IMG/VR virus record: IMGVR_UViG_3300009103_000076
Location: 1 to 38,272 of that record
Source of the DNA: a virus
Reading direction: 5' to 3' (one strand)
DNA length: 38,272 bases
Below the pieces are notes generated by a model, which ran no database searches, was not told the DNA's origin, and saw only the letters and a program-made list of their open reading frames with translations. This document shows positions 2,005-36,519 of this stretch, piece after piece (position 1 is the stretch's first letter; each line of letters starts with the position of its first letter). Made by a program: the position numbers and the translations under genes.

Positions 2005-2817
2005 TCACTCCCCCCAGAGTTTTGGCTTGTAAGTCTCAAAGCAAAAGTCACCGTGACGCAGGATGCGAGCCATACGCGCGCACGTAAGCGCTTCCTCGCG
2101 CGTGTGCCCGGCAGCCGTCCACGCAGGCAGCACGAGCGCCTCCCAGCGCTCAAGCAGCGAGCCGGTGGCGCCCGCGGCCAGGATCTTGCGAGCTTTGACG
2201 GGGCCGATCCCGCGCAGCCCTTCGTACCCGTCCGTGCGATCCCCCGTCAGCGCTTGAGCCAGAAACGCGTCATCTGCCTCAACCTCAGAGACCTCAAGCA
2301 CGCCGCTCTCCGGTTTGTCCCAATTGAAGTGAAGCCCCGGCACCGTGAGCAGGTCTTTGTCTATCGAGCAAACAACGGGCGGCAGCGTTTCGCTGGTCTC
2401 AAGCGTGGTGGGCACGGGGGGGCTCGTTGCCATAATCCCAAGCACGTCGTCGGCTTCCAGCCCTTCCACGGTGAGGGTCTCGTGGGTGGCTTCCACGTAG
2501 TTGCGCAGCGCGGCAATGCCAATGGGCTTGTGGCGGGTCTTCCGGTTGGCTTTGTACGTCGGCAGCAGGTCTCTCCGAAAGTTACTACCCGAAGACAACG
2601 CCACCACGTACTCAGCAGCCCCGAGCTGCTCAAGCACGTCGCTCACGAGGTCGTCAAACACCGCGGCGCTTTCGTCGGGCCACGTCCACGCGGTGAGCAG
2701 CTCGCGCTCGGTAGCGTCTTCCGCGTTTTCCACGTCCCAGCTCACGACCTTTTCAGCCGCAAACGCAGCGCGATACACAAGCACGTCCCCGTCAATCAAA
2801 CACCGCAGCCGCGTCAT
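2005..2817 (-). CDS. 5'-3' exonuclease / flap endonuclease, T7 gp6-like
   Basis: A 270-residue protein from the ATG at 2817, which overlaps the upstream HNH stop as ATGA; a slightly longer frame starts at 2844. It has the acidic N-terminus LIDGDVLVYRAAF (Asp9, Asp11), a basic patch with YKANRKTRHK near 87-96, the acidic site VEGLEADDVLG, and the second metal cluster SIDKDLLTVPG, followed by TGDRTDGYEGLRGIGPVKA, a helix-hairpin-helix of the FEN/PIN-like nuclease superfamily. T7 gp6 and the pol I 5' nuclease domain share this plan. It probably removes RNA primers and degrades DNA 5'-3'. Its place after the polymerase copies the T7 gene order. Confidence 0.88.
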   Translation of the reverse strand: MTRLRCLIDGDVLVYRAAFAAEKVVSWDVENAEDATERELLTAWTWPDESAAVFDDLVSDVLEQLGAAEYVVALSSGSNFRRDLLPTYKANRKTRHKPIGIAALRNYVEATHETLTVEGLEADDVLGIMATSPPVPTTLETSETLPPVVCSIDKDLLTVPGLHFNWDKPESGVLEVSEVEADDAFLAQALTGDRTDGYEGLRGIGPVKARKILAAGATGSLLERWEALVLPAWTAAGHTREEALTCARMARILRHGDFCFETYKPKLWGE

Positions 2818-3242
2818 TGCTCGCCCCCTTTGCCCAGGTTGCACGCCCCGCAGAGCGTTTGGAGGTTGCGGGGGTGGGCGCTTCCGCCCGCGCTGTGGGG
2901 GGTGATGTGGTCAACGTGAAGCTCGGCACGGCTCGCGCTGACCCCGCAGTGCTGGCAGCGGAAGCCGTCCCGCTTGAGTACCCGGTGGCGCAGCGCTGCC
3001 GTGATGCCCGAGCTGATCCCGCTTGCGCTTGCTTGCGTGGGGGGAGGGCTGCCCGCTTCGGGCCACGGCTCGCCCTGGCGGTGGGCCAACGCAAGCCGCG
3101 CCAGCTCGCGCTCCAGCGCACCGCACACCAACGCGTTGAGGGTGGGCGCGGCAGCTTTCCGGTGGTCTTCAAGCCAACGCACTGCGGTCTTGGCTTGCGC
3201 GTACAGTTCCCACGGCAGCCGTATCGTGGTGCGGTGCAGCAT
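2814..3242 (-). CDS. HNH endonuclease with N-terminal ribbon-helix-helix-like domain
   Basis: A 142-residue protein; its ATG overlaps the polymerase stop as TGATG. Residues about 3-50 (TTIRLPWELYAQAKTAVRWLEDH) look like a ribbon-helix-helix DNA-binding fold. Residues 85-142 are a classical HNH nuclease: C96xxC99, HVDH (109-112), Asn126 and C131xxC134 with two CxxC zinc pairs. It sits between the polymerase and exonuclease genes, a typical place for a homing-type HNH gene, but the RHH-like head would give it its own sequence recognition. Nicking for recombination or regulation of the operon are alternatives. Confidence 0.82.
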   Translation of the reverse strand: MLHRTTIRLPWELYAQAKTAVRWLEDHRKAAAPTLNALVCGALERELARLALAHRQGEPWPEAGSPPPTQASASGISSGITAALRHRVLKRDGFRCQHCGVSASRAELHVDHITPHSAGGSAHPRNLQTLCGACNLGKGGEQ

Positions 3243-5296
3243 CAGTGCGTCTCTGCCCAGCTCGCGCCTAAGTGGTACTCACCCGCCAGCGCAATGCGGT
3301 AGCCGAGCCTGCGCCCCGCGGTTTCAATCGCGTCGCACATGCGTTGCCCCAGCACGTTCGCCAGGTGGGGCGGTGCCTCAAATTGCAGCTCGTCGTGGAC
3401 CCACAGCAGCGGCGCGAAGTCTTGGCCCAGCACCCAGCCGCAGCCCTCCAGCCCGGTCATGAGTTGATAGAACGCGGTCTTCATAATTACCGCTTCATCA
3501 CTTTGCAGCAGGTCGTTGAGCGCGCCGTGCTCGCTGCGCACCGGGATGACGCGGCCGTCAAGCCCGCGCAGCCACCCGAAGCCCGAGCGCTTGGGCTTGC
3601 GGTGGCGGCCCAGCGTCGTGGAGGTGGGCGGGTTTCCCCGAGCAAAGCACGCGGCGCAGTTCTCAACGAGCTGCTCAAGCCCCACCACTTTGCTGGCGAG
3701 CTTCTCGCGAGACTTGCGGCCCAGGGCTGCGCACTGACTCAGCGGCGGCGGCGGCGCCTCGTTGTCTCCCGCTTCGTATGCCTCGCGCCAGTCTTCCACG
3801 ACGATGCTGCCTAGCTTCCGGTCAGCGGCGCCAAACAGCATGGCGTACGTGTACGTTTTCTGGTTGCGCCGGTAGTGGAGCCCGGTGGCTTGCTGCCAAG
3901 CGGTGTGCGGGTCGGACTCAAGCAGCACCCGCGCAAACTCACCCCCGTCAAACGCTGCCAAGCGGTGCGCAAGCGCTCGGAGCTGGAGCCCGCTCGCGTC
4001 AGCCCCAACCATCACCCAGCCCTCGCGCGTGGGCCGGAACAGCTCGCGGCACTCTTTCCCCCACGGCTTACCGCTCGCAGGGACTTGCGCCAGGTTGGGC
4101 TTGCGGTGGCTCGCGCGGGTCGTGCGGGTGCCCAACGTCTCGCAGCGCCCGTGAATGCGCCCGTGCTTGGTGACGAGCTTGCGCCACGCGTTTTGCCCAT
4201 CGCTAAGGGCACCGAGCCGCTTGCTGACCAGCAGATACTCACGGACCAGCGGCACGGCTTCCCACTGCGTCAGCTCCGAGAGGGTTTCGTCATCGCACGT
4301 GGCAACACCGTCCGCGCCGAAGTCTTTGGGCTTCCACCCGTAGAGCTGCCGCAGCCCGCGCTCAATATGCTTGGCGCTGCTCGGGTTAAATTCAACGGTG
4401 CGCACTTTGGTGTACGGGCACCCCTCCATCACGTTGCGGTAGCCGTCTTCCCCTGGCTTGACTTTGCGGCTGCGCTGGGTGCGTTTGGGTGTGACTTGCT
4501 CCACTTCCTCGGCCCACGGCGGGAACAGCTCGCGCAGCTCGGTGACTAGCGCTTGCTGGCGAGAGCGCAGGCGCACCTCCAGCTCAAGCGCTTTGGCGTC
4601 GTCAAACCCCACCCCGTTGCGCTCCATCTGGCCGACGTAATACGCCACCCACGTCTCAAGGGTGAGGCTCTCGTGGGAGTGCTGCGGCCAACCGTATTGG
4701 CTGCTGCTCGCCAACAGGTAGCGGTGGAGCTTCGCATTGAGGCTCACGTCTCTCATGCAATACGCAAGCAGCTCGGGGCTGTAGGTCATGCTCTCAACGT
4801 CTTCCACCTCACTCAAAAACTCACCTTTGAGGTGGTTGAGCCGGTAGCCCCAGCTCTCAAGGCTGTGCGCGTTGAGCAGCCGCGCGGGCATCCTGGCCTC
4901 TTGCTCTTTGTCGGTTCCCCCGTCCCGGCGCCGAAACTTCACGCTGCGCGCCCACATCGTTGACCCGAAGATCAAGCGGGACGCAATGAACGTGTCAAAG
5001 ACTTTGACCTGGCACCGCCACCCGTCAAAGAGCTGCTCTAGCACCGGCAAGTCAAACCGCGTGATGTTGTGGCCCGAGACGGTTTCGCGCTCGTTGATCC
5101 AGTGCGGCAGGGTATCCAGCGGGAGGGCTTCCGCCCCAACCCCTCGCGGCGGCTGCTCCCCCGCTGGCTACCAGACGACCCGCTTCCCCGTTTCCACTTC
5201 CTCAGCAGCAGCGCAAAGCAGCGTCAGCTCGGGGCCGCGGTCCAGCAAGCCGTTGGTCTCAAGGTCAAAAACCCACGTACCCTTTGCGCTCGTCAA
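3242..5296 (-). CDS. Family A DNA polymerase, T7 gp5-like, with an in-frame amber codon
   Basis: The frame from the TTG at 5296 (TTGA overlap with the helicase stop) to 3242 has 685 codons, near the 704 residues of T7 gp5, but codon 43 is TAG (5170-5168). Exo I (VFDLETNG, Asp11 and Glu13) lies before the amber. Exo II (SGHNITRFD, Asp82) and exo III (YCMRDV, Asp183) lie after it in the same frame. Polymerase motif A (GADASGLQLR, Asp433), motif B (RRNQKTYTYAMLFGA) and motif C (VHDE, 634-636) are intact. TAG is a normal stop for other genes here, so global recoding is unlikely. CAG to TAG is the simplest origin. The options are suppression or readthrough, an error or variant, or restart downstream (TTG 5050 is in frame but would lose exo II). 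Confidence 0.9.
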
Positions 5297-6987
5297 AACG
5301 GCACCTCAATCACGTCCGCGGTTGAGTGGTGGGGGAGGTGGTTAGCGGCAGCAAAGTCAGCGGGCGTGGCTTCGGCAGCGCTCTCAAACAGCCGCCCGGT
5401 TGCGTGGTCGTAGCTGAGCGGGATGACCGTGCCGGTGCCGCGTCCGGTAAAGCGGTCTTTGAGGATGCGCAGCCGGGTCTCCCCTTGCACTGCGGGGTCG
5501 TCGCTCTGGGTGTCGCGCTCCAGGCCAAAGAGGAAGTGGGACCAAAAGCCGATAGCGCGCGAGCCGCGGAAATGCCGAATCATCACGCGGCCCCCTTCCT
5601 CGTGGGGGACTCCCTCGGGCGTTGCTAGGTGGCTCACGAGGTTGACGCTGACGCCAAGCCCCACGGCCAGGCTCGCCACCTCTTCCATCAACACCTCTAG
5701 GCTGCGCCGCTCGTCACCGGGGTCAGCCAGCGCGGTGAGGTGGTCGAGAAAGAAATCTTGCACCCCCTCAGCTATTGCCAGGTGCCTGATGGCCCCGCGT
5801 ATCTCGCCCCAGTCTTTCGCGCCGAAGTGGTCAAGCAGGTGGAGCGCGGGGCCGTCAGCGAGCTGCTCTAGCGATTGATGCAGCTCGGCCTCAGTCCAAC
5901 CAGCTCCCGGCACCCAGAACGGCTTCCCCGCAATCTTTCCGGCCACGCGCGTGACCGTATCCACGGGCGACCCCTCCAAGTAAATCGCGGCCACGGGGCT
6001 CTCAAGCTCGGTGAGGGTGTGCGCAATACACTGGGTAAAGAGGTCAGTCTTACCCACGCCCGTGCCCGCGCCCCACGTGGTGACCTCCCCGTTGCGGCGC
6101 CCAAACGTGGCCGAGGTCAAGCTGGGAAACGGCCAGGGCTTCCCGATTTCCGCGGGTTTCTTGGCTTCCTCCAGCACGTCCCGCACGGTGACCAGCCCGC
6201 CCGGCTTGTGGGGAGTGGCTTGCCAAAACGCCCGCGTGAGGTCGTCCCCCCGCCCGTCCATCCATAGCTCGCTCGGGTCTTTGCCGGGGAGCGAGGCAAG
6301 GCACACTTTGCCAGGCGTAAAGAGCTGGCTGCACTTCTCAACCGCAGCTCGCCCGGCTTCGTCTTCGTCAAACATCAAAACCACTTGCTCAAATTGCTCA
6401 AGCCAGCCGAGAGCAGCGCCAACCGCGTTGACGGCATCGGCAGCGCCGGAGGGAAGACTAACCACCGGCCACGAGCCCCCGAGCGCTTCTGACAGGGCAA
6501 GCGCGTCGTGCTCCCCCTCGGTGATAGCCACGCGGCGCCCTGGCTTGTAGAGCTGCATCCCCCACAGCGGGAGCGCTTTGGACCGATCCCCAGCCCACGC
6601 AAACCGCTTGTCAGCGCTGCGGAAGTGCTGCGCCACCACGCGGCCAAACGCGTCCACATACTCAGCGACCTGCGCAACCTGGCCCCAGCGGGCGCCCACC
6701 CCGTAGCCGTAACGCTTGGCAGTGTTGAGCGACACGCGGCGGGTGGGAAAGGGCTGCCAGTCCACCGGCACCAGCTCCGCGCTCGTGCTGCTCGTGGGCG
6801 TGGCGCGCTGGGGCTGCTGCTGGTGGGGAAACGGGCGCGAGCTGCTGCTGCCCTCGGGCTGGCTGCTGGTCTTGCACGCAAAGCAATACGTTGAGCCGTC
6901 GTCGTACACCGCAAGGTTGTCGCCACTGGTGTCCCTGCCGTTGGCGCGGCAATCCGGGCAAGCGTCGTGGCGCACAAACTCAGCCAA
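5293..6987 (-). CDS. Primase-helicase, T7 gp4-like
   Basis: A 564-residue protein if started at TTG 6987, which overlaps the endonuclease I stop by 8 bases and has a GAGGGG upstream; T7 gp4 has 566. The open frame runs to 7146, but that part overlaps endonuclease I and is out-of-frame-like. In order: a Cys4 zinc ribbon (C10xxC13, C35xxC38), a TOPRIM primase core (TEGEHDA, Glu157; FDEDEAG, Asp207 and Asp209) and a RecA-like DnaB-family helicase with Walker A GAGTGVGKT (306-314), Walker B (DFFLDHL), the VSHLATP sensor and the HFRGSRAIG arginine-finger region. It unwinds and primes DNA for the adjacent polymerase. Confidence 0.94.
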   Translation of the reverse strand: MAEFVRHDACPDCRANGRDTSGDNLAVYDDGSTYCFACKTSSQPEGSSSSRPFPHQQQPQRATPTSSTSAELVPVDWQPFPTRRVSLNTAKRYGYGVGARWGQVAQVAEYVDAFGRVVAQHFRSADKRFAWAGDRSKALPLWGMQLYKPGRRVAITEGEHDALALSEALGGSWPVVSLPSGAADAVNAVGAALGWLEQFEQVVLMFDEDEAGRAAVEKCSQLFTPGKVCLASLPGKDPSELWMDGRGDDLTRAFWQATPHKPGGLVTVRDVLEEAKKPAEIGKPWPFPSLTSATFGRRNGEVTTWGAGTGVGKTDLFTQCIAHTLTELESPVAAIYLEGSPVDTVTRVAGKIAGKPFWVPGAGWTEAELHQSLEQLADGPALHLLDHFGAKDWGEIRGAIRHLAIAEGVQDFFLDHLTALADPGDERRSLEVLMEEVASLAVGLGVSVNLVSHLATPEGVPHEEGGRVMIRHFRGSRAIGFWSHFLFGLERDTQSDDPAVQGETRLRILKDRFTGRGTGTVIPLSYDHATGRLFESAAEATPADFAAANHLPHHSTADVIEVPF

Positions 6988-7414
6988 CCGCGTCCCCCTC
7001 GCACCCCTCCAGCCAGCTCTCAGGCAAGCTCGGCCCTTGGCACCACGCAATGCCGTGCTTGGTCGCCCACTCCCCATAATTCGCGGGGAAGCGGGTGCCC
7101 TTGCCAATCCGGCTGCTGGCGTTTTGGAAGCACAAGCGGAAGTCAAACCGGGGGTGGGTCGCGATCAAAGCCAAAAACGCTTTGCGGTCTTCGCTCGGGA
7201 AGTAGCCTTTGGCCTCAATAAATATGCCGTTGGCTAGGCGGAAATCCGGCACGGCTAAGTGCGGCACGGCATACGGAAGCTCTACGGGTTCGTAAAGCCA
7301 ACCAACCCCGGCCAAGTCCAACGAGGCAGCAACCGTGGACTCAAACCGGGACCGGAAGCGTATGCCGTGCCGCACCGTTGCACGCCCGCGCTTAGAAATC
7401 GCTAGCACTCCCAT
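6980..7414 (-). CDS. Holliday-junction endonuclease I, T7 gp3-like
   Basis: A 144-residue protein (T7 gp3 is 149) starting at ATG 7414. The active-site pattern of endonuclease I is complete: Glu25 in FRSRFES, Asp57 in VPDFRLANG, Glu67 and Lys69 in IFIEAKG. The C-terminal NYGEWATKHGIAW stretch also matches the family. It resolves branched DNA during replication and packaging. It lies between SSB and primase-helicase exactly as in T7. Confidence 0.93.
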   Translation of the reverse strand: MGVLAISKRGRATVRHGIRFRSRFESTVAASLDLAGVGWLYEPVELPYAVPHLAVPDFRLANGIFIEAKGYFPSEDRKAFLALIATHPRFDFRLCFQNASSRIGKGTRFPANYGEWATKHGIAWCQGPSLPESWLEGCEGDAVG

Positions 7415-19159: not shown

Positions 19160-19658
19160 GGATGCCAAGGGCCGGTTCATCAAGGGTTCTGGCTCGGGTG
19201 CCCCACGCAAGACAAGCGGAGGCGGCGGCAGCGCAGCTCGTGCCCGCACAGCCGTCAACGCCCGCATGGAAGTGGTGGGGGATGTGGAGCTGGAGCGGAT
19301 GCTGCTGCGTATGAGCCAGGCAGTAGCCAGCGAGCTGCTCGCGGACGCGTTGGAAGCCGGGGCCGAGCCGGTGGTGGCGAAAGCCAAGCAGCTCGTGCCG
19401 AAACGCTCGGGGCAGCTTGAGCGCTCTATTCGCTACGAGCTGGCCGAGCGCAGCGACCGATTGAGCCAGGGAGACGTTGGGCCAGCCTCGGGACCGAGCG
19501 AGCCCGATGACGGTTTTTATGGCTTCTGGGTTGAGTTTGGAAATTACGGAAAGCCCGGCACCCCGTTTATGAGCCGCGCCGCTGAAATGAGCAAAGACGA
19601 AGCGCAGCAGCGCATGGCTGACGTGATCCAAAAAGCGCTCTCAAAGGCTGCCCGCTGA
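19152..19658 (+). CDS. HK97 gp10-like tail/head-tail protein
   Basis: A 168-residue protein from ATG 19152, overlapping the previous gene by 8 bases. A basic Gly/Ser-rich N-terminus (about 35 residues) precedes the gp10 core: ELLADALEAGAEPVVAKAKQLVPKRSGQLERSI and FYGFWVEFGNYGKPGTPFMSRA. The family acts at the neck during tail joining. Confidence 0.88.
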   Translation: MRRDAKGRFIKGSGSGAPRKTSGGGGSAARARTAVNARMEVVGDVELERMLLRMSQAVASELLADALEAGAEPVVAKAKQLVPKRSGQLERSIRYELAERSDRLSQGDVGPASGPSEPDDGFYGFWVEFGNYGKPGTPFMSRAAEMSKDEAQQRMADVIQKALSKAAR

Positions 19659-20029
19659 TGGCTTACGTGGAGGCGTCCGCGGTGAGCTGGCTGAAAGCTA
19701 ACGCCACGCTCAGCTCGTTGATTAGCTCGCAGGTGTTTCCCCAAGTGGCCCCGGCTAGCAGCTCGCTGCCGTTCATCACTTACCAGACGGTCACGGACAC
19801 GCCCGCGAGCGGGCTAGGCGGCAGCGCTGGGCTCAAGTTCGCCCGGCTTCGGTTTAGCTGCTTTGGCTCCAGCTACGGGCAGGCCAAATCAGTGGGCGCG
19901 CTAGTGCGCTCGACATTAGACGGCAACGGCTCAGCCATCTGGGAAGCCACCTTTGACGGGTACGACGCGGAAACCCGCACCCACTTCACGGTTGTTGACG
20001 TGTTGATCGCGGACGCGGACGACGAATAG
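19658..20029 (+). CDS. Tail terminator / completion protein, DUF3168-like
   Basis: A 123-residue protein from ATG 19658 (TGATG overlap). SWLKANATLSSLISSQVFPQVAP..LPFITYQTV and LRFSCFGSSYGQAKSVGALVRSTLDG match the DUF3168/gpU-like tail terminator layout. It caps the tail tube and stops its growth. The stop codon lies inside one copy of a 19-bp imperfect repeat (see 20015-20122). Confidence 0.85.
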   Translation: MAYVEASAVSWLKANATLSSLISSQVFPQVAPASSSLPFITYQTVTDTPASGLGGSAGLKFARLRFSCFGSSYGQAKSVGALVRSTLDGNGSAIWEATFDGYDAETRTHFTVVDVLIADADDE

Positions 20030-20122
20030 CAAGCGCACCCGCGCTGCTCCCGGCCCGCCGCTCTTTTCAGTTTTCCCGGTTCGTATGCGCGTGTGCATTT
20101 GGCGCGGACGACGAAAAGCAAG
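20015..20122. repeat. 19-bp imperfect direct repeat bracketing 70 bases
   Basis: Bases 20015-20033 and 20104-20122 differ at one position. The first copy holds the stop of the tail terminator gene; in the second the T of the stop is A, so it would read on. The offset is 89 bases. The rest of the gap to 20161 shows no gene. Confidence 0.75.
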
Positions 20123-20161
20123 ACCCCACCACCCCCTTCATGGCGAGAGGATTGAGACGGC

Positions 20162-20587
20162 ATGGCAACCATCAAAGGCATGGGCACCGCGTTCAAGATA
20201 GGCGACGGCACAAGCCCCACCGAAACCTTCACGGCTATTTCGGGCATCAAGTCCATTGGCATTCCTGGCTTGAGCGCTGACGTGGCAGACACCACGACGC
20301 TGGCCAGCACGAGCAACTACGAGGAAGCGCTGAGCACTGTGCTGCGCACGGGTGACCTGACCCTCTCGCTTTCGTGGGACCCCGACGACACCGAGCACCA
20401 GGGCTTCCTCACGGACTACGCCAGCGGCGCGGTCAAGAGCTATCAGATTGTCTTCACCGACACGACGCCGACCACGTTTCAGTTTTCGAGCATCGTCACG
20501 GGCGTGAGCATCTCGATTGAGACGGGCAGCGAGGTCACTGCCGAAGTGACGCTGAAGAACACGGGCGTGCCTAACTTCGCAGCGTAG
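20162..20587 (+). CDS. Major tail tube protein, copy 1
   Basis: A 141-residue beta-rich protein from ATG 20162. It carries LSADVADTTTLASTSNYEEALSTVLRTGDLTLSLSWDPDD (residues about 38-78), the core shared with the next two genes, and ends in an EVTAEVTLKNTGVPNF strand. The place between tail terminator and tail chaperones is that of the tail tube gene. Its composition matches the genome, so it is the best candidate for the main tube subunit. Confidence 0.85.
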   Translation: MATIKGMGTAFKIGDGTSPTETFTAISGIKSIGIPGLSADVADTTTLASTSNYEEALSTVLRTGDLTLSLSWDPDDTEHQGFLTDYASGAVKSYQIVFTDTTPTTFQFSSIVTGVSISIETGSEVTAEVTLKNTGVPNFAA

Positions 20588-20596
20588 AGGTAGGAC

Positions 20597-21013
20597 ATGG
20601 GCGCACTAACGAGCCTTGGCACAACGATAAGGGTTGGCGGCTTTGAGGTAGGACAGGTAACTGCCATTCAAGCAGTCAACCTTTCTGCGGACGTAGCCGA
20701 CGTGACAACGTTAGCCAGCGCATCGAATTACGAAGAAGCAGCGTCTACCGTTCTTCGGTCTGGGGAGCTAGTTGTTTCCGTTGCGTGGGACCCGGACCTT
20801 ACAACGCACTCCAATAGTATCTTCAGCGGAGCTATCGGAGAATGGCGAACGCAAGAGAATAAGAGCGTAAACATCACTTTTGCAAACGCCAATTCAAGTG
20901 TGTGGCAAATCTGGGGCTACGTCACCGGCATAGCCATTACAGCCGAGACCACTGACGTGTTGCGTGCTGACTTTACGTTTAAGACCACGGGCGCCGGAAC
21001 GTTTACGAACTAA
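20597..21013 (+). CDS. Tail tube paralogue, copy 2, compositionally atypical
   Basis: A 138-residue protein from ATG 20597, nine bases after copy 1. It keeps the shared core LSADVADVTTLASASNYEEAASTVLRSGEL and the WDPD motif, and the final ADFTFKTTGAGTF strand. Sampled lines of this gene are about 47-52% GC, well below its neighbours, with codons such as TTA, GTA, ACA and AGA that the rest of the genome avoids, and it has no GAGCWGCTC site. The protein fits the family while the DNA looks foreign. A recent arrival from a lower-GC relative is the simplest reading. Confidence 0.82.
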   Translation: MGALTSLGTTIRVGGFEVGQVTAIQAVNLSADVADVTTLASASNYEEAASTVLRSGELVVSVAWDPDLTTHSNSIFSGAIGEWRTQENKSVNITFANANSSVWQIWGYVTGIAITAETTDVLRADFTFKTTGAGTFTN

Positions 21014-21031
21014 CACGCGGAGGGATTGCCC

Positions 21032-21445
21032 GTGGGTGCGTTGAATAGCGCGGGGACTATCCTGCGGCTACAGAACACGACAGTGGGTCAGGTGGTGGGC
21101 ATTTCCGCAGTTAACCTCAGCGCTGACCTTGCCGACGTGACCAGCCTTGATAGCGCGAGCAACTACGAGCACGTGCTTGGCAACGTGTTGCGGAGTGGTG
21201 AGGTGACGTTCTCAGTTATCTGGGACCCGGACAACGTGAGCCACGGTTCGGGTGGCAACGGTTTCATTGGGCGCTGGGAAGAGCAGAGCACCCCGGTGTT
21301 GACGGTGATATTCCCAAACGATGACCAGAGCGTGTGGCAGATAGACGGCATCGTGAGCGGCGTTTCAATCACCGCCGAATCGGCCGACGTTGTACGGGCT
21401 GAGGTAACCGTGAAGACTACGGGTGTCGGCACTTTTACCCAATAA
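21032..21445 (+). CDS. Tail tube paralogue, copy 3
   Basis: A 137-residue protein from GTG 21032, seven bases after GGAGGG; a TTG at 21026 is too close to that site. It starts MGALNSAGTILRL like copy 2 (MGALTSLGTTIRV) and shares LSADLADVTSLDSASNYEHVLGNVLRSGEV and WDPD. The core is more diverged (NYEHVLGN). It may form part of a mixed tube, a tube-tip ring or an alternative subunit. Confidence 0.82.
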   Translation: MGALNSAGTILRLQNTTVGQVVGISAVNLSADLADVTSLDSASNYEHVLGNVLRSGEVTFSVIWDPDNVSHGSGGNGFIGRWEEQSTPVLTVIFPNDDQSVWQIDGIVSGVSITAESADVVRAEVTVKTTGVGTFTQ

Positions 21446-21472: not shown

Positions 21473-21871
21473 GTGAAAGCTAGCGACATACGGCAAGCCA
21501 TCGGCCAGGTGGATGACGCGGACTACACCGAGGTGCGCGTACCCGAGTGGGGCGCAGACTTTTCGGTGCGGGTGCGTACGTTGACCGGCGCCGAGCGTGA
21601 CCGCTTCCTGACCACGCAGATGACCACCAACGCGAGCGGGGAGCTGGAGCCCGTGCTGGCTGGCTTTCACGCCAACATTGCCGCGCTGGTGATGGTGGAC
21701 GAAGACGGCACGCGGGTCTTCCCTGACGCGGACGAAGGCGCCGAGCTGCTCGGTCAGCGCAACGCCGACGTGGTGCAGCGCATTGCTGAAACCGCAATGG
21801 CCCTCAACGGTCTGACCGCGGAAGCGGTTGAGGAAGAGGTTGAGGGTTTCAGCGAAGCCCCGAGCGCTTAG
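21473..21871 (+). CDS. Tail assembly chaperone, gpG-like
   Basis: A 132-residue protein from GTG 21473 behind a strong GGAGGGGGAG. It is acidic, with RVRTLTGAERDRFLTTQM in the middle and QRNADVVQRIAETAMALNGLTAEAVEEEVEGF near the end. Between tail tube and tape measure, this is the lambda G position. A -1 slip at 21844-21850 yields the longer GT product. Confidence 0.85.
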   Translation: MKASDIRQAIGQVDDADYTEVRVPEWGADFSVRVRTLTGAERDRFLTTQMTTNASGELEPVLAGFHANIAALVMVDEDGTRVFPDADEGAELLGQRNADVVQRIAETAMALNGLTAEAVEEEVEGFSEAPSA

Positions 21872-22233
21872 CGTGGGTCCGTCTCTCCCTCGCTCTGGGC
21901 ATCCCCCTCACAGAACTACAGCAGCGCACCAGCTCGCGGGACTTCACGCGCTACCTGGCGTTTTTTAGCGTTGAGCCGTGGCCTGAGCAGCGCGCGGACT
22001 TCAACGCGGCGCTGGTTGCGGCTGTGATTGCGCGGTGTCTTTCCGAGTCTGAGGTGGACCCTGACGCGTTCGCCCCGGACTATTGGGCCAGCGCTCGCGC
22101 TCGCGCCGAGGAAAAGCGCCGCGCCGCAGCTCCCCCTCCCGAGCCCCAAAGCCCGGACGCTCTCACCCGTCAGCTAGAGCAGCTCGCTCAGCTTTTCCCT
22201 GACGCGGTGATTGAGAACAAGACCAGAAAGTAG
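21473..22233 (+). CDS. Tail assembly chaperone GT fusion made by -1 frameshift
   Basis: Reading the first 126 codons, slipping back one base at 21850, and continuing to the TAG at 22231-22233 gives 253 residues. The T part (GFQRSPERLAWVRLSLALGIPL..FTRYLAFFSVEPWPEQRADFNAALVAAVI) has no good start of its own and its frame is closed by TGA (21841-21843) right before the slip site. This matches the G/GT pair of lambda-like phages, in which a small share of GT loads the tape measure protein. Confidence 0.83.
21844..21850 (+). other. -1 ribosomal slippery heptamer GGGTTTC
   Basis: In the gpG frame the ribosome reads G-GGT-TTC and can re-pair one base back as GGG-TTT, the canonical X-XXY-YYZ form. 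It sits directly after the -1 frame stop and 19 bases before the zero-frame TAG, at the right place to make GT. Confidence 0.8.
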
Positions 22234-30920: not shown

Positions 30921-31218
30921 CAAGCCCCCGGCGCCCGTCGTCGCGAGCGCGGCCACCGTGACCCCCGAAGCGGCAGCGCGCCGCGCTCGTCGGCAAGCGG
31001 TGGCGGCTGGCCCTGGCCCCGAGTCCGCGGCCGAGATGCTGTGCGTGTTGCAAGACACCACCGTGGAGCTGCTCAAGCAGACGCAAGCGGGCACGGACCT
31101 CTTCCGCGAAGTGCTGGCCGAGCTGCAACTACTGAGAGAGAAAACGCAGGCAGCGATTGACGCGGCTGAGGTCAACACCGAGCGGGTGGTGCAAGCCGTG
31201 CGGGAGCTTCCGCGGTGA
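30907..31218 (+). CDS. Coiled-coil tail-region protein, unknown
   Basis: A 103-residue protein from ATG 30907. The first 45 residues are Ala/Pro/Arg-rich and the rest (EMLCVLQDTTVELLKQTQAGTDLFREVLAELQLLREKTQAAIDAAEV) is a continuous coiled coil. No membrane span. Likely a connector or a chaperone of the fibre region; unassigned. Confidence 0.55.
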   Translation: MPRFDKPPAPVVASAATVTPEAAARRARRQAVAAGPGPESAAEMLCVLQDTTVELLKQTQAGTDLFREVLAELQLLREKTQAAIDAAEVNTERVVQAVRELPR

Positions 31219-31289
31219 CCGTCGAGCTGCTGCGGTGGGTTGCCGCGTTTGCGCTTGCCGTCTCGCTGGCTCAGTGGGTGGCGCGTTGA
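31215..31289 (+). CDS. 24-residue single-span membrane microprotein
   Basis: A tiny frame from GTG 31215, overlapping the previous stop as GTGA, whose TGA overlaps the next ATG as TGATG. The product MTVELLRWVAAFALAVSLAQ (then WVAR) is one hydrophobic helix with charged ends. Double coupling supports translation. It directly precedes the ferritin-like/acyltransferase gene, so it may anchor or regulate that product, or simply keep ribosomes coupled. Confidence 0.5.
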   Translation: MTVELLRWVAAFALAVSLAQWVAR

Positions 31290-32629
31290 TGGGACGGCTG
31301 AGGGGGTGGGTGCAAGACTGGGAAGTCCGGGAGCTGGTGCGGCGGAATTTGCAGCACGCTCCCACGCACCTCACGGGGGACGACCGTATAGCGGGGCGCT
31401 GGCTGTTTTCGCTGCTGGCCCAGATGGAGGGCATCGCCGTGGAAGCGGCACGCCGCGGGGACGGTGTGCGGGGGCAGCTCCGCGACGAGCTAAGCCACCA
31501 GCAAACCTTTGCGCACATTGCCGAGCAGCTCGGAGCTACCGAAGCCCAACGCAGCCCGGAAATTGACGAGCTGGTTGAGTACCTCGAAGGGCTCGGGGGC
31601 GCGGAGAGCCTGGCCGCTCTCAATATCGTTGCGGAGCACTGGCTGGCTGGGATTTTCGAGCGGGTGGCGCGTTGGCCGCTCGCGTCGTGGCTGTTCACGC
31701 TTATTGGCGCGGAAGAGCACCGCCACGTTGCGCACGCTCTGAAAGCAGCTCGCCCCAGCTCCACCCACGCGCAGGCAGTGGTGCGGGTACTTGAAGAGCG
31801 GCTGGCCCAGGTCGCCCACGCGCCGGGGTTTCTGCTCCCGCTCGCGCACTTTGGTGGCGGGGAAGAGGTGGCGCAGATAGGACTCCGCAACGTGCACGAC
31901 CACCGCACGGCTTGCGCTCGGCTCGGCGTCGTCCCCGGCCCTGCTGTGCGAGACCTTGAAACGATGGCGCGGGGCTATCTCGCGGGGCTGCCCGAGGAGC
32001 CCGAGCTGCTGCGGCTCAACCGCTGGGAGCGCAGCCGCTTTGACATTTGGACGACCCCCGCGCCAATGGTCAGCTTTGTGGACGCGTGGGGCGTCTTCCC
32101 TGACTCCCCGGCAGACCTTGAGGCTCGGGTGGTGCTCGCGGTAGGCAAGGCGCTGGCGGCCCACCCGGAGCTTCGGGTCACAATGCGCGGCCGAAACCTC
32201 TACCGGCCGAAGACCGTGAGGGTGGGGGTGCGCCGGATGCGGACGCGCAACGAGCTGGTCACGCTTCACGTGCGCGAGCCTCAGCGGCTTACGCGGGGGG
32301 AGGTGGAGGCACGGCTGGAGCGACACGCGGCGCGGGCTCGGAGCCGTCCATACCACGCCGTGCGCTCAGTCCCGTGCGAGCTGCGCCCGTTGGTCCCCCC
32401 CACACGCACCCCGGTGGTGGTCACCAATTGCAGTGAGTTGGGCTGTGACTTTGCGCTGGCTCCCCTGGCCGAGCTGGAGGGCACACCCATCAGCGTGGCG
32501 GTGGGGAAGGCGCACCTATCTGGCCGCGTCACGCTCGGTATAACCCAAGACCACCGAAGCGGGGACGGTCGAGCGCTGGGGCTGCTTACCCGAGAAATCC
32601 GTGAGAGGTTGGAGGCGCAAGCCGCATGA
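31289..32629 (+). CDS. Ferritin-like diiron domain fused to E2-type CoA acyltransferase domain
   Basis: A 446-residue protein from ATG 31289 (TGATG overlap). Residues about 1-175 form a helical bundle with a diiron pattern: Glu47, ExxH (Glu67, His70), Glu116 and ExxH (Glu143, His146). Residues about 260-442 resemble the catalytic domain of 2-oxoacid dehydrogenase E2: VVLAVGKALAAHPELRVTM, a VGVRRMRTRNELVTLHV strand pair, PVVVTNCSELGCDFALAPL, and DHRSGDG (His422, Asp426), the E2/CAT active-site motif. No lipoyl domain is seen. Acceptor and CoA substrate are unknown. It lies between tail hub and fibre genes in the same operon. I know of no phage protein with this pairing. Confidence 0.7.
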   Translation: MGRLRGWVQDWEVRELVRRNLQHAPTHLTGDDRIAGRWLFSLLAQMEGIAVEAARRGDGVRGQLRDELSHQQTFAHIAEQLGATEAQRSPEIDELVEYLEGLGGAESLAALNIVAEHWLAGIFERVARWPLASWLFTLIGAEEHRHVAHALKAARPSSTHAQAVVRVLEERLAQVAHAPGFLLPLAHFGGGEEVAQIGLRNVHDHRTACARLGVVPGPAVRDLETMARGYLAGLPEEPELLRLNRWERSRFDIWTTPAPMVSFVDAWGVFPDSPADLEARVVLAVGKALAAHPELRVTMRGRNLYRPKTVRVGVRRMRTRNELVTLHVREPQRLTRGEVEARLERHAARARSRPYHAVRSVPCELRPLVPPTRTPVVVTNCSELGCDFALAPLAELEGTPISVAVGKAHLSGRVTLGITQDHRSGDGRALGLLTREIRERLEAQAA

Positions 32630-35195: not shown

Positions 35196-35471
35196 TTACG
35201 ACCTCTGCATGTCTTTGTGCGCCGCGACCACCGCCGCGCGGGTTTCCTCGCTCAACCTCTTCCACGCCCGGTCAAGCCGGTTGGTGCTGGCTTCGGTCCA
35301 CGTAGCCGGGTCGTAGTCGTTTGAGGGGCAGCCCCTCTCCTCGTCCGAGACCATCGCAGCCCACAGCGCTCGGGATACTTCCGCCGAAATCTCCCAAGTT
35401 TCCGCCACTGTGTCCAGGGTCGTAAATCGTGCCCACCGGGGGGCGCGCTTCGGTGCGGTCTTCGTCGTCAT
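35196..35471 (-). CDS. Small basic helical protein overlapping the TGT-like gene
   Basis: A 91-residue protein from ATG 35471. Its first 200 bases lie inside the 3' part of the TGT-like frame in another phase. Composition is ordinary protein-like (ETWEISAEVSRALWAAMVSDEERG, RLDRAWKRLSEETRAAVVAAHKDM), more so than the other frame at this place. No family recognised. Confidence 0.55.
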   Translation of the reverse strand: MTTKTAPKRAPRWARFTTLDTVAETWEISAEVSRALWAAMVSDEERGCPSNDYDPATWTEASTNRLDRAWKRLSEETRAAVVAAHKDMQRS

Positions 35472-36519
35472 TGTTCTCGGTTCCTTTCTCGTTGTTGTTG
35501 GTGGTGGTTTCGGTCTCGTTGCTCGCGGCCAGCGGCTCGCTGGTCTCGCTCAGCTCGTCCCCAAACAGGTCAGCCATCAGCGCGACGGCTTCCGCTTCGG
35601 CTTCGGCTTCGGCGGCGCGGCGCTTGGCCTCGAGGTGGGCCAGCACCCGCTCCAGCTCTTCCGAGTTGAAACGCATGAGCGGGGTCTTTGCCTGGCCGCT
35701 CGCGTCAGCGCAGATGACCTCTCGCACGTATTCGTCGGCGCCCGTGCCGCGGTAGCTCCACGCCACGAGTTGCAGCAGCTCGTCATCCGTGAGCGGCCCG
35801 AGCAGCAGCGCGGCATCCCCGTCCCCCAGCCGGTCGCTGCACTTCAACGAGCCGATGCGGCTTCGCAGTGCGCGGTACTCCGCGACCCACGTGGAAGAGT
35901 CAACGGTGGTGAGCCGGGTGTGGCCGCGCTTGAGCGCGTAGCGGGTCATCCCCAAGCCGTGAACGGCCACGCCGTAGCTCTCGCAGATGTTCAGCGCTTC
36001 GGTCAGCCACGCGTCAGGGCTCATGCCGTTCCCTTGGTCTTTGCTGATGGTGTTGCCGTTACGCGCGAAGCCGAGCGCCACGCGGTCAAAGCGCTGGCAG
36101 TAGTGGTGGAGCACTTCCCACGGCTCAACCCCGCCACCGTGGAACACCGGCACCACGTCCACGCCAGCGTTGAGCAGCTCGGCGGTGTTGTTCCACGTGG
36201 TTGTTAGGTCGCCAGCGATATCGTCAAGCGTGATGATTTGGTCAAACAGGTGCCCGTATTCAGCGGCAAACGCTGTGAACGCTTCCAGCTCAACCGTAAT
36301 GCCGCGGGTGAAAACCGTGAAGGCACCCGAGTCGAGAATGGCGGTGCTGTACTTCCCAGCCTCCAACCGCGGGAGCAGCTCGCGCTCCCACACGCCCGGC
36401 CGGTCCAGCACGTCCGCGAACGAAATCAGCACCGGGAAGCCCTCAGCCGCTTCGGCCAACAGCGCGGTGTTGAGCCCGGCCAGGTAGTTGAGGGGGGTGG
36501 GGTCGGTGGGGTTGGTCAT
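35272..36519 (-). CDS. TGT/DpdA-like transglycosylase, possible DNA 7-deazaguanine modification enzyme
   Basis: A 415-residue frame from ATG 36519 behind AAAGGAA. Residues about 25-215 fit a tRNA-guanine transglycosylase-like TIM barrel: ILDSGAFTVF (Asp63), FDQIITLDD, DVVPVFHGG, RVALGFARNG, VHGLGMTRYALKRGHTRL and TTVDSSTW (Asp207). This is the pattern of phage queuine-transferase/DpdA proteins, which exchange guanine in DNA. A poly-Glu/Asn tail (about 305-350) follows, and the last about 65 residues are read across the next gene in another phase and look unnatural. No preQ0/queC-E genes are near, so a base would have to come from the host. tRNA as substrate is not excluded. Confidence 0.62.
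   Translation of the reverse strand: MTNPTDPTPLNYLAGLNTALLAEAAEGFPVLISFADVLDRPGVWERELLPRLEAGKYSTAILDSGAFTVFTRGITVELEAFTAFAAEYGHLFDQIITLDDIAGDLTTTWNNTAELLNAGVDVVPVFHGGGVEPWEVLHHYCQRFDRVALGFARNGNTISKDQGNGMSPDAWLTEALNICESYGVAVHGLGMTRYALKRGHTRLTTVDSSTWVAEYRALRSRIGSLKCSDRLGDGDAALLLGPLTDDELLQLVAWSYRGTGADEYVREVICADASGQAKTPLMRFNSEELERVLAHLEAKRRAAEAEAEAEAVALMADLFGDELSETSEPLAASNETETTTNNNEKGTENNDDEDRTEARPPVGTIYDPGHSGGNLGDFGGSIPSAVGCDGLGRGEGLPLKRLRPGYVDRSQHQPA

Follow-up and report, generated by a model that had tools for sequence, protein, structure and literature searches.

The virus record occupies the entire window, a stretch of 38,272 bases with a G+C content of 65%, and its tail module follows the usual siphophage order of head closure, neck, terminator, three tube genes, chaperone, tape measure and tip genes (Table 1). 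The tube array lies after the terminator and before the frameshifting chaperone, a position occupied by one tube gene in single-copy relatives; in L084, a single-copy IMG/VR virus with the same gene order, the tube gene lies between the terminator and the chaperone/tape measure. The tip genes downstream of the tape measure are lambda-like, and the last of them encodes a 1591-aa gpJ-like protein. Because the genome encodes a terminator, a chaperone, a tape measure and lambda-like tip proteins, the extra tube copies do not replace an absent standard end part.

Table 1. Coordinates of the tail-tube array, its shared hairpins and the flanking tail genes in the window.
Feature	Coordinates	Strand	Basis
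Tail terminator (gp17/gpU-like), upstream of tube array	19658..20029	+	PF11367 1.8e-11; phrog_347 9e-10
TTP1, 141 aa, tail-tube protein; proposed bulk tube subunit	20162..20587	+	PF16461 2.5e-12; phrog_158 9.7e-19
TTP1 beta2-beta3 ring-to-ring hairpin, residues 37-64	20270..20353	+	Aligned to lambda gpV loop
TTP2, 138 aa, tail-tube paralogue; codon-usage outlier	20597..21013	+	phrog_158 6.2e-7; PF16460 9.5e-4
TTP2 hairpin, residues 29-56	20681..20764	+	Motif and identity comparison with other copies
TTP3, 137 aa (GTG start), tail-tube paralogue, TTP2 sister	21032..21445	+	PF16460 4.7e-7; phrog_158 9.4e-8
TTP3 hairpin	21116..21199	+	Motif and identity comparison with other copies
Tail assembly chaperone, G-like	21473..21871	+	phrog_344 3.9e-20
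GGGTTTC slippery heptamer	21844..21850	+	Phase correct for -1 frameshifting into T-like frame, open 21844-22233
Tape measure protein, 725 aa	22248..24425	+	phrog_991 1.6e-24

A preliminary description had placed three adjacent genes of 141, 138 and 137 residues, with shared motifs, at the positions in Table 1, and our analysis confirms them, on the plus strand. All three reading frames are intact, each has a Shine-Dalgarno-like sequence, and the spacing is tight, with genes 9-30 nt apart. The start of TTP3 is most likely the GTG at 21032, located 6 nt past GGAGGGA, which yields the 137-aa product; an alternative TTG at 21026 lies immediately next to the Shine-Dalgarno sequence. A scan of the array found neither a promoter-like site nor a switching element, for example two inverted repeats close together, and the gap 5′ of TTP1 (20030-20161) likewise contained no promoter-like site and had an RNA fold that was not unusual. 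A 20-nt direct repeat, 95% identical with its copies 89 nt apart, is found at the terminator's end (20014-20033) and in the noncoding gap before TTP1 (20103-20122).

Elsewhere in the genome, the minus strand encodes a T7-like replication set in this siphophage setting (2008-7146; 5′-3′ exonuclease, family A polymerase and T7-type helicase-primase), together with a 415-aa protein (35275-36519) that matches the queuine tRNA-ribosyltransferase family phrog_887 (4e-26) and is possibly a DpdA-like DNA modification enzyme. A 490-aa reading frame past the tip genes (31157-32629) has a Pfam 2-oxoacid dehydrogenase acyltransferase match (7e-7) that may be spurious.

The three products are plain 14.5 kDa domains, none with an added surface domain. 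Pairwise protein identities are 41% (TTP1-TTP2), 38% (TTP1-TTP3) and 55% (TTP2-TTP3), which is 21-34 SD above shuffled controls, so the likeness is not due to chance. Each copy matches the 'major tail protein' family phrog_158 (E 1e-18, 6e-7 and 9e-8 for TTP1, TTP2 and TTP3), and TTP1 and TTP3 pass a Pfam cut-off for lambda tail-tube proteins; TTP2, with E 9.5e-4 against PF16460, falls short of it. The AF2 models of TTP1 and TTP2, built from 26 sequences and of moderate confidence (pLDDT 81 and 76), have the predicted tube fold, consisting of a beta sandwich, one helix and a long beta2-beta3 hairpin. The best PDB match of both models is the lambda-type tube 9mfe (TTP1: Z 15.8, rmsd 4.5, 138 residues aligned; TTP2: Z 11.4, rmsd 5.1, 130 residues aligned). 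Profiles, gene order and the predicted fold of TTP1 and TTP2 thus agree in supporting the three genes as lambda-type tail-tube subunits, and the earlier identification of tandem tail-tube paralogues holds. Membership of a copy in another structural family, which would have refuted that identification, was not seen for TTP1 or TTP2, whose predicted folds match lambda gpV best, and it is unlikely for TTP3, given its sequence identity to TTP2.

An alignment of the copies, as the preliminary description had proposed, showed that they are 38-55% identical and that the hairpin is the part most alike. Residues 37-64 of TTP1 align with residues 50-78 of lambda gpV, where we anchored the gpV numbering on the D61/D62 pair. 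This segment of gpV is the flexible beta2-beta3 loop, which makes the bulk of ring-to-ring contact in most solved tubes, and changing two Asp residues within it stops tube growth in lambda (PMC8718954). TTP1 and TTP2 are identical at 24/28 hairpin positions (86%) and at 31/105 positions outside it (about 30%; Fisher 8e-8), a strong contrast. The contrast is moderate for TTP1 and TTP3 (18/28 versus 32/105, Fisher 1e-3) and marginal for TTP2 and TTP3 (20/28 versus 55/105, Fisher 0.05). The sequences that are invariant or nearly so in all three copies are LSAD-AD-T(T/S)L-S-SNYE, VLR(T/S)G and WDPD; the motif core that had first drawn attention to these genes is not generic, but marks the inter-ring hairpin. 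The position of gpV D61 is occupied by Ala in TTP1 and TTP2, and by Asp in TTP3 and several single-copy relatives, a difference that could set which rings stack.

Identity among the copies is concentrated in TTP1 residues 37-75, a block picked after the data were seen, whereas the hairpin limits (37-64) were set by gpV homology. Outside this block, identity is 27-28% between TTP1 and its neighbours, and 23-35% between TTP1 and the tubes of other phages. Inside it, identity rises to 0.77 (TTP1-TTP2) and 0.62 (TTP1-TTP3), compared to 0.36 +/- 0.08 (maximum 0.51) in 103 other tube pairs whose identity over the rest of the protein is 0.25-0.30, and the block-minus-rest excess of these two pairs is the most extreme among all tube pairs compared. 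Codon agreement at identical residues is no higher than chance, including within the block, and synonymous sites are saturated. Consequently, the hairpin and block match is kept by selection on the protein, and recent gene conversion or exchange is unlikely. Two proposals were rejected on these codon data: recent duplication or gene conversion, as codon agreement is at chance level, and deliberate codon scrambling against recombination, as there is no deficit of shared codons. The selected contacts may be other than those of stacking.

A tree built from 64 tube proteins places the trio in one clade (91/94), with TTP2 and TTP3 as sisters (100/96) and L084 as the next row out. When block 37-75 is removed, the trio clade is retained at 89/80. 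Duplication within the lineage is therefore favoured, though not proven, and separate origins of TTP1 and of TTP2/TTP3 are unsupported, even if the clade without the block reaches only 89/80. The beta1-beta2 region is common to TTP2 and TTP3 (0.64-0.79 identity in windows over residues 8-35) and different in TTP1, which is 0-21% identical to them over residues 8-35; over residues 6-33, TTP1 keeps 32-52% identity with the single-copy tubes of other phages.

The copies also differ in codon adaptation. TTP1 has the highest value of the 21 genes compared (0.756), alongside the chaperone at 0.747 and the capsid at 0.721; TTP3 has 0.622. TTP2 is an outlier at 0.473 (z -7.2, GC3 0.56), every other gene having a z no lower than -3.1. 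Although codon adaptation only weakly indicates expression level in a phage, its simplest reading is that TTP1 would be the abundant subunit. For TTP2, the simplest reading is that it may have been acquired from a genome of lower G+C, by analogy with Gordonia cluster DJ siphophages, in which one tube gene of the two looks foreign in its codon usage and was proposed to be horizontally acquired (PMC12859696). The odd codons of TTP2 may reflect recent acquisition only.

We surveyed 76 loci, most of them fetched as relatives by their major capsid protein (MCP) or portal gene; in each, a tube gene could be detected and was followed by no less than 2.5 kb of sequence. Within the reach of the profile used for tube detection, one tube gene was present in 71 loci, two in 4 and three in the present window only, which bears out, for a limited survey, the earlier statement that one tube gene is usual in siphophages. 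Siphophages with two copies are also described in the literature, as set out below. Two tube genes were found in L020 by an earlier model. As the two copies of L020 are each other's sisters in the tree, and likewise those of L071, the multi-tube state probably evolved on several occasions. No close relative of the trio was found in phages (blastn and P0002 search), in IMG/VR (motif and P0001 searches) or in genome_contigs (P0001 search), and scanning IMG/VR with either the tip protein or the tape measure did not reveal one. The closest single-copy relatives are L084 and Tetraselmis viridis virus S20 (31%). The latter (L004, NC_020840, 1067-6650) has an algal host listed and a classification among the tailed phages; it carries sialyltransferase and glycosyltransferase genes directly before its head-closure gene.

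Hairpin sharing recurs in other two-tube phages, yet it is not a rule. In six of six pairs of the phrog_9522 type, two of which are near-identical, hairpin identity exceeds that of the rest of the protein (0.46-0.69 versus 0.20-0.39); nine pairs of the phrog_1407 type have no such excess (0.39 versus 0.42). Within two-tube genomes, a covariation test gave the same result for the rest of the protein as for the hairpin. Tandem phrog_9522 and phrog_10528 pairs, with an added C-terminal segment on one copy and a preferentially shared hairpin, are found in L189, L259, L260, L261, L245 and L249.

Lambda gpV (PF16461/PF16460, phrog_158) has the same fold, as predicted for TTP1 and TTP2, and the same profile, genome position and ring-to-ring hairpin as the proteins described here; the differences are the three tandem copies and the C-terminal Ig domain of gpV, which none of them has. 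More than one related tube gene is also found in cluster DJ, where FortCran gp22 and gp24 are 43% identical and unlike in G+C (PMC12859696), and in Microbacterium cluster EL siphophages, which have more than one related major tail protein (PMC11080557). The DJ and EL copies are separated by other genes, whereas here three short copies, 38-55% identical, lie side by side. In Damascus the copies exceed those of the trio in length (255-286 aa), and FortCran gp22 is extended by 51 residues at its C-terminus. Gp17 and gp20 of Damascus form one family, both matching phrog_2645, and the trio, matching phrog_158, thus belongs to another sequence family. Clostridial prophages and IMG/VR phages (phrog_1407 twice, or phrog_9522 with phrog_10528) have tandem tube paralogues as here, but in two copies, one of which invariably carries an additional segment that makes it larger (204-324 aa), in contrast to three plain domains.

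The tails of SPP1 and T5 likewise contain tube modules of differing form: in SPP1, frameshifting adds an FN3 domain to one product (gp17.1*, alongside gp17.1), and in T5, pb6 fuses two tube modules in one protein (PMC8718954, PMC9022992). Unlike gp17.1*, the present copies are three separate plain-domain genes, and the frameshift site is found in the chaperone instead. T4 has several proteins along its tube axis, with six copies each of gp48 and gp54 as the platform for gp19 (PMC3004832); these are 35-40 kDa proteins at the baseplate-tube junction, whereas the copies here are 14.5 kDa and encoded before the chaperone. Two-copy siphophages are thus already known, and what is new here is three copies in tandem with a common joint.

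A hairpin that stays constant while the bodies diverge fits a tube in which different rings are stacked. The reading we put forward, to which we give an even chance, is that TTP1 forms the bulk tube and that TTP2 and TTP3 form minor rings in the same virion tail, stacked via the common hairpin. Three lambda-type subunits would enter the same tail, most of which would be built from TTP1; TTP2 and TTP3, the younger sister pair, would form minor rings, each on its own or mixed together. The rings would stack because all three subunits keep a near-identical beta2-beta3 hairpin, leaving the rest free to diverge. A more specific arrangement, with TTP1 rings and separate TTP2 and TTP3 rings joined by the common hairpin, so that the surface or bore varies by ring, is possible but more tentative. 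We infer the presence of all three subunits in the particle, the arrangement of their rings and their relative amounts from the sequence of one genome. A tape measure protein spans about 1.5 Å per residue. Tube rings rise by 38-43 Å, one ring per roughly 4 nm (PMC9022992). By this estimate, the 725-residue tape measure would specify a tail with some 26 rings.

Of the three meanings first suggested for the array, dedicated rings and a mixed-subunit tube both fit the shared hairpin. In a mixed tube, all three subunits, or TTP2 with TTP3, would co-assemble within hexamers, producing a tube of lower symmetry. TTP2 and TTP3 are the natural candidates, being 55% identical and sharing most of the beta1-beta2 region, which includes beta2, the ring-lateral edge strand in solved tubes (PMC8718954); a precedent among the structure-search matches listed is PDB 9vne, a heterohexamer of the tube-like paralogues Hcp2-Hcp3 from a Bacteroides T6SS. 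TTP1, however, has diverged laterally from both, and its participation in their rings is unlikely because residues 8-35 are nearly unshared, single-copy tubes being closer to it there. Codon adaptation is also very unequal among the copies, which favours dedicated rings over a mixed-subunit tube, and we regard co-assembly within hexamers as unlikely.

The third suggestion, alternative surfaces that escape receptors, antibodies or host defence, found no specific support: no switching element was seen in the array, its genes are closely spaced and none of the copies bears an extra surface domain. In a related proposal, any copy could build the tube, and repeated acquisition would supply variation, for example against host factors that recognise tail proteins. 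The foreign-looking codons of TTP2 (z -7.2), a trait it has in common with the comparable tube gene of cluster DJ (PMC12859696), would suit such a reservoir, but no switching element or promoter-like site was detected in the array, and a free-standing reserve has no need of a hairpin matched to the other copies; we consider it quite improbable. Finally, the extra copies may be redundant or decaying, with no distinct role, given that a single copy is enough in most relatives and that TTP2 is poorly codon-adapted. Three intact reading frames with Shine-Dalgarno-like sequences, and a hairpin kept at a distance where synonymous sites are saturated, make such decay very unlikely.

Tube proteins are commonly regarded as a single, repeated component. 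Spare tube genes are mentioned in genome announcements, and we found no explanation for them. If this tail is indeed made of several subunits, it would show the hairpin to be the fixed part of a tube protein and the rest its variable part, and would help to address the question of why extra tube genes are present in some siphophages. Comparing the hairpin with the remainder of the protein provides a sequence test applicable to every multi-tube phage.
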